64,000 bases of DNA from Rhodamnia argentea (taxonomy: Eukaryota; Streptophyta; Magnoliopsida; Myrtales; Myrtaceae): the NCBI RefSeq assembly GCF_020921035.1, contig NC_063157.1:20849015-20913014 (forward strand), given 5' to 3'. Made by a program: the position numbers and the translations under genes. Position 1 is the stretch's first letter, and each line of letters starts with the position of its first letter. The notes beneath the pieces were generated by a model. The model did no database searches. It saw only the letters and a program-made list of their open reading frames with translations, and was not told where the DNA came from. Positions 11,216-15,741 of this stretch are shown here, piece after piece.

Positions 11216-14200
11216 TCACCGTCCCTGAAGTCGCAGCGTAAATTTGTGCAGTGCTTGAAGAACCTGCTTAAGTTTCTCCTTTGCCTCTGGATCAACCAAG
11301 TTTCCCTCACCATCGAATTTTGTAGGTGGTTGAAATGCATTCAAGACGAATTCAGGCTTGTTGATGAAATGAAGATCGATAAAGACCCCAATTTGACGGA
11401 GATGATACTGTGCCCGTCCCCCACCAGAATCTCCTCCCGCGCTCACAATGGCAGCTGCCTTACCGGCCCAAACATTTGGTGGTCTAGATGCCCAGTCAAT
11501 TGCATTCTTCAAAGGAGCTGGCATAGCACAAAGAAGAAAATGATCAAGAAATGAATGCCTGCACAAATGCATAACTTCCTCGTCCTTTATTGTTGTGCGA
11601 ATGCTAGTGAAAAATTTCAGCTGACGACCACTGTTGCGTACTTATTTTGCTCCTAAGCAGGAAATGAACGAGAGCACCACAGACAGTTATATCAAACTTA
11701 CTTCCAACATCAAGGAGTTGGCTCAGTATTAAAGAAATAGACATGTACGCGTAAACCTATGCGTGGATTACGCATTACGACAAAGGTTCAAACTCCCAAC
11801 ACCATGAAGTACTAATAACCTTTGGGCTATCCACTCTGGCTTCTACTTAGGCCTTACTTGATCTAAAAGATCATTAAAGTGTGTATGGTTGTTTGGATGG
11901 GGAAACAGATTTCATTCAGACTTACCGTGCTTTAGTGAAATCGAATGATTTTAGCAATGTGTAGTCTACCACTGACTTATGAATTCAAAACAGGACTACA
12001 TAATTCTCTTTAGTGTACACAGATTCAATGAACTCGAGATCCAATAGTATCTGAGAGAAGGATTGTATTTTCTAATTTGTTCCACACAAACATACTGATA
12101 TTTCCAAGAATCTGTACCACTGCAGATTGTCACCTCACCCCATTCCTATTAGTTTAGCAAGGAGATCAGTCTCATAGTCAAGAAAATGGATGATAAGTCC
12201 ATTGTGAGAATTTTTCAGACAACAGATGGTTGTCAAGCAAGCCTCAGTGCAAGGATTGATAATTTGATAAGTACACTAATACATCATCCTCTAAGCAGTC
12301 AAATATGCCATGAGTCGATAAACAAGGCTGACAACCTAAGTAATCATGTTTGAGTGAGCGCAACATACACAAATACGTAAAGTACAAACATAAACATGTC
12401 TACAGTATAGTCTCATCAAATCCACAGAGTGTTGCGTGCTGCGTTTTCATTTCACAAGCAACTATATAACGTACATATATACGTAAGAAACCACAGCATA
12501 CACTCTCTCAACAATCTCTCAAGCATGACATCGACAGCTCTGAAATTGATCAACAAAGACTAGGTTCATCATTATAGTAGTTCCAACTTCCAATCACTTC
12601 GCAGTTTTATTCTCATTGAATTACTCCAACAGTGAGGCCTCCCACATCACAGACTACAAGTGCCAACAATGCATAATGTGAGTAGCATCTTTTTAGTCTA
12701 ACAGGAGTTGGGAAGTCGAGGACTCAGGTAACAAAGCAAATCCACCTACAAGTTCTTGGAAGGCATGTTCATTCATACACCAAACCATCCAATACATTTA
12801 ACCGTGAAAAGGAAAAGGATCATCCGAAAGTTAAGGGCCTGCATGGTAACTATTCTCATTCTATGATTCTGATTCTAAGAACAAAAAAGGATGAGAATCG
12901 CGTTTGGTAGGCAAATAAATTTGATTCTGATTCTGTTCCCGGAATCGGTTTTAAAGAATCGGAATCAGTTTTAGAGCAAAATACGGAACAAAAAAAAAGT
13001 TGGTTCTGGGAAAAAGAATCACTTTTGAGAATCACAAAACAAAATAAAGTCTCACATTTCTCACTTTTCCCTTTCAGTTCTCTTGTCACTTTTCCCTCAA
13101 CCTAATAAAAATAAAAAAAAAAAAAAAAAAAAAAAATTGGAAAATTTTTAAAAAATCACAAAAAATTAGAAAATCCCTAAGAATAGAATAAGCTTTTATT
13201 AGGCTAGTTTGACTCATTTTCATAAATTTGGGTCTAAATTTCTTAGATTTTGTCTATTTCACTCTTCTACAAAAAATGTCACAAAAGATGATGGCATCCA
13301 ACATGTGGATGATAATATAGATACTCGTAGTGTGCATCACAAAATGTAAACATCTACATGTAGAGCTAAAGCTAAACACTCACTTGGATTTAGGGCGGAA
13401 GCTGCAAAATAATAGTGAAGGACTTGTACTTCGTATCAAGGAGGATAATTTTTTTTTTTTTTGTCGGTGGATAATTTGATTATTCGGCTACTATGTTTGT
13501 ATATATTTTAGACAACGCAACATTTAAAGAAGAAAATGAGTTATTAATATGGGAACTATTCTATGCTTCAATCGAACTTCAAACGTAATGTATTAAAATT
13601 TGTATTTCATTTATGACATGCTAAAAAAAATAATGCATTTTAAATTATTTTAGTGTGCATTGGAAATTAGTCTTCAATTTATGATGAAATTTTACAAAGT
13701 GACTACATAGTTATTTAACTTAAATGAAAAAAATTAGAAAGAGAAACAGCTTTTTGAAACAGAAATTTTGTGCGGTTATCAAACGCTTTTCTATTCCAGG
13801 AATAAAAATTTTGGGCAATTATCAAACGCGTTTCGAATTTCTAAAACTCATTCGGGAATAGAATCGGAAAAAATTATTTTAATCGGAATCGGTTTTTCGG
13901 AACGGAATGGTTACCATGCATAGCCTAAGAGCCTCCATGACAACCATTCTGATCCGAAAATGTGATTCTGATTAAAATGACTTTTTATGATTCTATTTCC
14001 TGGATGAATTTTAGAGAATCGTAACACGTTTGGTAATCGCCCAAAATTTCTGTTCTTGGAACAAAAACGCGTTTGATAAGCGCACAAAATTTATGTTCCC
14101 GAGAACAATTGCTCTTCTCAATTTTTTCCATTTAAGTCAAATAATTATGTAGTTATTATTTGAAATTTCATCATATATTTTGAATTAATCGAGGATTAAT

Positions 14201-15741
14201 TCATATTGATTTTCTTATATAATTTATTGCATATTGAAATGTAAAAATAAATATCAAGAATCATCACGAGTCATTTTCACTATTAATTGTGGGGTTTCAT
14301 CAACTTTTTTGAGCGAGTGGATAACCGGCACGAGCGACACCTTTGTTTTTACAAGAAAAATGCATTGCACTGCCTCGAATTATGTGTGTTTTTGGTTCTA
14401 GAAAATCAAATGCCAGTCTTAATTCATCGAAAACTTAAGAACGAGATGATTCAAGTTTAATTGCAAAGGCATTTATGATTTTTCTACAAAAGAACAAAAT
14501 CTATTAAATCTATGCCTAAATTTATGAAAATTAGATCAAACTAGCCTAATCTAAACTTCTTCTATTTTTAGGGATTTTTCTGAAATTTTTCTTATTTTTC
14601 AGAATTTTTTTCGATTTTTTTTATTTTTTATATAATATTTTATTATCTTATATATATATTTTTTTAAAATGAGACCTCATTCTGTCTTAGGTCGTGGAAA
14701 AATTAAGAGAACTGAAAAGGAAAGGTAAGAGATGTTAGACTTTGTTCTGTTTTGTGATTCTTAAAAGCGATTCTTTTTTTCGTAACCAACCTTTGTTTTT
14801 ATTCTTGTTTTTCCTTCAAAACCTGTTTTCGGGAACGGAATCGAATCAGAATTATTTACGTTACCAAACATGATTTTCATCTTTTTTTTTTGTTTTGAAA
14901 AATAGAACCAGAGAACCAAAATGGTTACCATACAAGCTCTATATTGGCTCTAGTTTGGTTTGACGGCAAAAATGGAGGAAGAAAGAAAAACATCACCACA
15001 AGCAAGATAAAAGCAGAGCAAGATAATTGAGGCCGATGCCATAGTTGTGAAAAGGAGAAACTCATTAGATAGACTCGTTTTATCCCCAACACAGCCCGAA
15101 GCAACCGTCGTCTGATCCACCAATTTGGCAATAAACTCAATCTTATCTAATCTAATCCAATAAAACGTGCATGCGGATGGAAGCAATATCATTTCTAGTG
15201 ATTAACTCCATTTAATCACTCCCAAGACAAGAAAAATTAGCAAACAGCAGTCGATTCTTCTTCTATGAGCTCAACAGCCATAAAAGCAATGACATTGGAT
15301 AGCACCACTATGAACAAGTAAATGCATAGAATGAAGCAGACAAAGGCGGTTACGAGTGACGGAGTAGTTGTACTCGGGGGAAGCAAAGAGGATGCTGTCG
15401 GATTCCAGAACCTTCTGACGAAAAGCCTCGACCGCCGGCGGGAACCTGCCGTCGACTACGAGGTCCGTGTTTATCATCGGAAGCGGCGACACGTCGATCA
15501 GCTCAATCTGCATCCCGTTCACCGATTGCTTGGATATCTCGATCGCTATCGCCATTAACATGAAAAAGGACGGAGCCAACACGTTCCGATGAAGAGCTAC
15601 AGATTTAGGGCACGGATTTCGAAAATCAAGATCGACGCGATTACCGGAACGAAGGAGGCCTCGGTTGAAAGAAGCTTTCCGAATTGACCCGCAGATTGCT
15701 GCGACCTTGATCACTGGGCTAGCGAGCACTGTAGATTCCAT
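11216..15741 (-). CDS. NQR: NAD(P)H:quinone oxidoreductase / NADPH-dependent FMN reductase
   Basis: Three exons join in phase to 196 residues: 15741-15645, 15545-15354 and 11517-11216 (TGA). The Arabidopsis NQR protein (At3g27890) is also 196 residues as I recall it. The product is a flavodoxin-like FMN enzyme that reduces quinones with NAD(P)H by two electrons, avoiding semiquinones. Visible family features are the N-terminal phosphate-binding loop CGSIRKASFN, DVSPLPMINTDL, FASPEYNYSV before the second intron, and SRPPNVWAGK plus GGGRAQYHLRQIG in the last exon. I start at the ATG at 15741; the longer frame has no earlier ATG. The first intron is 99 bp, but the second is 3.8 kb and hosts an inverted pair of DNA transposons. 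The joined exon 2/3 codon gives Pro where homologues often have Ala. No coding lesion is seen, so the gene is probably expressed if the long intron is removed. Confidence 0.93.
12835..13925 (+). mobile_element. TIR DNA transposon, copy 1 (non-autonomous, PIF/Harbinger-like)
   Basis: The left end reads GGGCCTGCATGGTAAC and the right end is its imperfect inverse, ending GTTACCATGCATAGCC. Both ends are flanked by TAA (12832-12834 and 13926-13928), a 3-bp duplication of the TWA type typical of PIF/Harbinger and Tourist-like MITEs. The interior has repeated GATTCTGATTCT-like motifs near both ends, a poly-A run at about 13110-13135, and no transposase frame. The superfamily is inferred from target-site length and TIR style only. 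Confidence 0.75.
13929..14939 (-). mobile_element. TIR DNA transposon, copy 2, inverted relative to copy 1
   Basis: This begins GAGCCTCCATGACAACC and ends with the inverse, GGTTACCATACAAGCTC. Read on the - strand, its whole length aligns by eye with copy 1: same GTTTGGTA block, same CACAAAACAGAACAAAGTC-type block, same AGGCTAGTTTGA block, and same inner end. The left flank shares the TAA next to copy 1, and the right flank is TAT, so its target duplication is imperfect. No coding capacity was seen. Confidence 0.72.

Follow-up and report, generated by a model that had tools for sequence, protein, structure and literature searches.

In rice, 11% of miniature inverted-repeat transposable elements (MITEs) occur in multimers, a figure that a passage of PMC10664404 cites from Jiang and Wessler (2001). 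Neighbouring transposable elements (TEs) have also been connected with small RNAs: excerpts of PMC3086885 describe ‘complementary insertions’, in which two cognate TEs, inserted side by side and inverted relative to each other, give rise to microRNA (miRNA)-like hairpins (two of these rice hairpin cases being, by the same account, not bona fide miRNAs), and a portion of PMC12595863 reports 24-nt small interfering RNAs (siRNAs) from MITE inverted repeats near genes. Here we analyse two related MITEs that stand in opposite orientation within an intron of a quinone-reductase gene of Rhodamnia argentea, in a 64,000-nt stretch of contig NC_063157.1 (positions 20,849,015–20,913,014; labelled C8 in genome-scan coordinates) that we refer to as the window. 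Both elements are non-autonomous, Tourist-like members of the PIF/Harbinger superfamily, they belong to two sister families rather than one, and the pair is very probably a two-element multimer that arose from two separate insertions and is carried as an intronic passenger.

The left MITE (12835–13925, plus strand, 1091 bp) starts with GGGCCTGCATGGTAAC and finishes with GGTTACCATGCATAGCC, and lies 7.5% from a consensus of 27 other copies. The right MITE (13929–14939, minus strand, 1011 bp), in the opposite orientation and of the sister family, starts with GAGCCTCCATGACAACC, finishes with GGTTACCATACAAGCTC and lies 11.5% from a consensus of 31 other copies. The two stand tail to tail with one TAA (13926–13928), common to both, as the sole spacer at their point of abutment, which is the arrangement of a MITE multimer. 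On the outer sides, a TAA target-site duplication (12832–12834) flanks the left element and a TAT (14940–14942), probably a decayed TAA duplication, flanks the right, such that the flanks read TAA/TAA for the left MITE and TAA/TAT for the right. The positions, sizes, inverted orientation and 3-base separation given for the two elements by a first-pass annotation of this DNA, as well as their location inside the quinone-reductase intron, are borne out by the sequence and by blastn.

The similarity between the two elements far exceeds chance. Comparison of the left element with the reverse complement of the right by blastn returns two blocks, left 3–419 with right 3–446 (E = 1e-52) and left 842–1084 with right 761–1004 (E = 1e-58). 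In a global alignment, block A, in which the left arm (12835–13253) pairs with the right arm (14494–14939), is identical at 302 of 398 ungapped columns (76%), and block B, in which 13676–13925 pairs with 13929–14179, at 196 of 250 (78%). The left core (13254–13675) and the right core (14180–14493) are unrelated by alignment and by comparison of the family consensuses, identity across the central part being 137 of 296 (46%) compared with 45% on average, and at most 52%, in 30 shuffles. Related sequence thereby amounts to about 670–700 nt per element, or about two thirds, and the non-homologous middle third to cores of about 420 and 315 nt, which contradicts the full-length homology asserted in the first-pass annotation and is equally at odds with the contrary outcome that it had considered, homology at the termini only. 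The 2.1-kb imperfect inverted repeat that it described stands as to the inverted arms and falls as to their continuity: arms of about 250 and 420–445 bp, in two outer blocks, enclose a non-pairing interior of unrelated cores.

A search for further single and paired copies, which had been proposed at the outset, was run over the 347 Mb (74 contigs) of the genome scanned, and found abutting junctions at 37 places as well as relatives of both elements. Each element query retrieved itself and 39 other places among the 40 candidates scored, out of 1063 for the left and 1241 for the right, making these family sizes lower bounds; the left-family relatives are 83–89% identical to their query, and each family has dozens of copies in the genome. 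Consensuses built from 27 of the 39 left-family and 31 of the 39 right-family relatives measure 1094 and 1204 bp, respectively. They agree at 77% over one end (1–428 against 1–450) and at 91% over the other (845–1088 against 954–1198), with no match between their cores on alignment. Each half of the window pair is 85–92% like its own family consensus; over the matching blocks, the two halves are 76–78% alike. The left and right MITEs are members of two sister families with different cores, not copies of a single transposon family as first supposed. Relative to its family consensus, the right MITE has also lost about 185 bp near 14446/14447.

The PIF/Harbinger label was tested through target-site duplications and a transposase relative, and therefore does not depend on resemblance alone. 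Identical TAA or TTA flanks, the 3-bp TWA duplication (W denoting A or T) of this superfamily, border 31 of 52 full-length copies. Empty sites could be reconstructed for 32 insertions from 58 copies and display a palindromic Y-TTA-R preference: A occupies −3 at 18 of the 32 sites and T occupies +3 at 18, and position −2 is a pyrimidine at 26 and position +2 a purine at 23. The terminal inverted repeats (TIRs) fall in the expected range of about 14–25 bp; the left consensus ends in GGGCCTGCATGGTAACCATTCT and AGAATGGTTACCATGCGCAGCC, an imperfect repeat, and the TIR end of the right consensus reads AGAATGGTTGCCATGCAGGCCC.

A relative with a DDE transposase and the same ends is also present. A genome search with PF13359 (DDE_Tnp_4) gave at least 155 matches among those listed, from 150 scored of 227 candidates. 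One of these (C3:4405993–4406577, 49 bits, 4 stops) is flanked by TIR ends of the window type at C3:4404475 (+) and C3:4410241 (−), each adjoining TTA. The transposase-bearing element that they delimit, C3:4404475–4410260, is 5.8 kb long and degenerate, with its ends in loci L080 and L081, and is the one locus checked at both ends. It matches the left consensus at 91% at one end (882–1094) and at 75% at the other (1–192). Part of the left core (737–820) is present at 83% beside the first of these ends (L080), and recurs next to a TIR end close to another DDE_Tnp_4 match (L082). With the 100 listed of 430 TIR ends, and with DDE_Tnp_4 loci from a PF13359 list that stops short of the weakest matches, 4 of the 36 loci that share the territory of these ends have a correctly oriented end at most 6 kb away, compared with a mean of 0.27 under random placement, which reached 4 in one of 5000 trials of a proximity test that was designed after the coincidence had been seen. 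An element of the C3 type is likely to represent the source type for both MITE families. A paired-end scan of four other DDE_Tnp_4 loci (L066–L069) found no such pair, and at L066–L068 the consensus matches are short only. Within this group, L066:1936–6528 and L068:1870–6501, both with DDE_Tnp_4 matches, are 97.5% identical over 4.6 kb, and seem to point to another, much younger Harbinger-like lineage.

With their TAA or TTA 3-bp duplications, short TIRs starting with G, many copies, lack of recognised coding sequence and DDE_Tnp_4 relative with matching ends, the window families resemble Tourist-like MITEs. Copy number is high and no transposase open reading frame was found, the two tested of 11 listed core frames (the longest, of 135 amino acids, and one of 49) having no Pfam match at E ≤ 1. 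The differences lie in length and in TIR sequence. MITEs are usually under about 600–800 bp, and at about 1.1–1.2 kb the window families are long; short non-autonomous Harbinger elements would be an equally good name for their members. Their TIRs read GGGCCTGCATGG, that is G(N)5GCA, rather than the G(N)5GTT that served as a search criterion for Medicago PIF/Harbinger elements in the relevant passage of PMC2213677. Taken as the lineage criterion of one study, the missing motif lowers the case for PIF/Harbinger membership without excluding it.

The abutment seen in the window recurs across the genome. A TIR-TWA-TIR pattern, allowing at most two mismatches, is found at 37 places compared with 2 for a reversed control pattern; five are exact, 10 have one mismatch and 22, including the window pair, have two. 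Single ends matching half of the pattern number 1472 and 1400, compared with 157 and 188 for the controls. The 15 junctions with at most one mismatch were inspected, and their orientation was called from the consensus end at the junction together with the similarity of the two sides. Five are inverted (L062, L072, L075, L076 and L077, the last being the weakest), six are direct (L061, L063, L064, L065, L071 and L079, with L071 and L079 called on weak matches) and in four the sides have no clear kinship (L070, L073, L074 and L078). A right-family copy outside the 37 places, L012, is an additional direct pair, and L063 has the appearance of three abutting elements. Junctions exact on both sides were seen five times (four if L061 and L063 count once), whereas 0.12–0.16 would be expected from independent insertion, an expectation that uses the TWA density of the window and assumes that every TWA site is targeted equally. 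Because the preference measured at the empty sites contradicts this equality, the resulting 25–40-fold excess is rough.

In abutting at the target trinucleotide, and in recurring across the genome, these elements behave as MITE multimers do, and the window pair is one case of this known habit, an ordinary arrangement. It differs from the multimers of the rice report, known here through PMC10664404, in joining two sister families, tail to tail and inside an intron.

The sequence of events that we infer from this anatomy begins with two sister families that share subterminal sequence, probably by way of one lineage of transposase-bearing elements, and that differ in their cores. One copy would have landed at a TAA within the intron, and a copy of the other family would then have landed, in the opposite orientation, in the TWA at the edge of the first, with the outcome TAA-left-TAA-right-TA(A>T). 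Of the two copies, the right is probably the older, being more diverged from its consensus (about 115 of 1004 sites, compared with about 82 of 1089 for the left; z = 3.1); in that order, the left copy would have inserted at the edge of the right. As an intronic passenger, the pair would be spliced out of the transcript.

Several observations weigh against this history or parts of it. The duplications fit either order of insertion, with the same TAA pattern, and divergence from a consensus also depends on how old the family is and on the selection of the copies most similar to the query. On its outer side the right element is flanked by TAT and not TAA, and 21 of the 52 full-length copies have no perfect TWA duplication exactly at their borders. 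As for the junctions, several of the 22 places with two mismatches do not resemble TIR pairs by eye, the window junction itself falls in that class, and all five exact junctions involve neither of the window families but a third, related group whose TIRs have GTATGGTAA ends. The edge of the element reads GG after TTA, of which G at +2 fits the target preference and G at +3 occurs in 2 of the 32 empty sites; the abutment is thus only partly accounted for by target preference. A block of about 700 bp spanning the junction is common to L061 and L063 (L061:1067–1755 and L063:880–1579; 88%, in opposite orientation), and the two may represent one event, a composite duplicated or moved as a unit. The history of insertion is, moreover, read from this genome alone.

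The transcript of the pair could fold into a hairpin, as the first-pass annotation had proposed. RNAfold predicts −705 kcal/mol for the transcribed strand, and 508 pairs that link one element to the other, compared with −432 kcal/mol and 53 pairs when the right element is flipped. As a prediction the fold is sound, and it takes the form of an imperfect, branched hairpin, in which the longest uninterrupted helix is 26 pairs with G-U counted. Its stem is far from the long, near-perfect kind: the arms are 76–78% alike, exact words shared by the two arms stay below 18 nt, only two being 15 nt long, and each element also folds alone (−211 and −212 kcal/mol). With such arms and such self-folding, the suitability of the pair as a small-RNA precursor had been overstated; small-RNA production from it is possible. 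Elsewhere on the same contig, the two inverted halves of L062:69–2561 (C8:13996775–13999407), abutting at TTA, are 87% alike over 1259 bp and have an exact 21-mer in common at 94 positions. Because the window pair has no exact word of at least 18 nt, whereas L062 has these 94 positions, the window pair is a poor donor of long double-stranded RNA by comparison, and L062, judged by its arms, is the stronger candidate for a small-RNA hairpin.

It is in our judgement improbable that the pair is already a working small-RNA locus, a proto-MIR or siRNA hairpin of the complementary-insertion kind, in which Dicer-like enzymes would cut the folded intron into 21–24-nt RNAs that silence members of one or both MITE families or the host gene. 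The inverted arrangement folds far better than its flipped control, and the precedents in the excerpted parts of PMC3086885 and PMC12595863 speak in the same direction, but the shortness of the exact arm matches, the non-homologous central third and the self-folding of each element all argue against it. The window pair resembles the complementary insertions in consisting of two related TEs in opposite orientation that are able to supply both arms of a stem; it differs in the lower likeness of its arms, without a long exact word, and in being a hairpin predicted from sequence. We hold equally doubtful the wider proposition that PIF/Harbinger MITEs in this genome, by inserting at a flanking TWA some 25–40 times over expectation and with 5 of 15 junctions inverted, keep making hairpins, some of them in transcribed introns, that could become small-RNA loci silencing their own families.

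The two sister-MITE insertions make the intron a potential hairpin precursor, and such precursors are thought to be the raw material of TE-derived small-RNA genes. One genome yields, through the TIR-TWA-TIR pattern, a few dozen candidate abutments that include the better inverted pair L062, and the fate of inverted MITE pairs as small-RNA loci is therefore testable on a set rather than on a single example.

With regard to origin, we consider it very improbable that the two elements are a single, larger palindromic transposon moved as a unit by its outer TIRs. The outermost sequences are indeed inverted repeats (12834–12888 and 14886–14940, 75%), and the block common to L061 and L063 shows another pair that was perhaps duplicated as a unit. 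However, a query with the 2105-bp pair, for which 40 of 1451 candidates were scored, found no second pair among them, every one of the 39 besides the pair itself being a left-family copy; the two elements differ in their divergence from their own families, and the TAA between them is intact. A tandem inverted duplication of one element, as the abutting, inverted and partly similar halves might suggest, is rejected as scarcely credible, since the halves resemble their respective families more than they resemble each other, and the cores differ.

Two separate insertions, which we retain as the probable origin of the pair, account for 2105 of the 3836 bases of the host intron (11518–15353, minus strand; GT...AG, phase 1), and a longer intron is all that the analysis shows as an effect on the quinone-reductase gene. 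The donor, read on the minus strand, is TCACTC/GTAACC and the acceptor GCCAG/CTCC, the slash marking the splice site, with FMN_red exons on either side: the upstream exon (15354–15546, minus strand, the high-coordinate border being approximate) is an open frame reading AIEISKQ...YNYSVT, and the downstream exon (11216–11517, minus strand), also open and including the stop codon, translates as PLKNAIDWASRPPNVW... The spliced protein matches Pfam FMN_red (E = 9.7e-41), its closest solved chain is 1rtt_A (E = 1.8e-47), and the predicted product is an NADPH-dependent FMN reductase or quinone reductase. Joining 11517 to 15354 on the minus strand creates a proline codon, SVT-P-PLKNAIDW.

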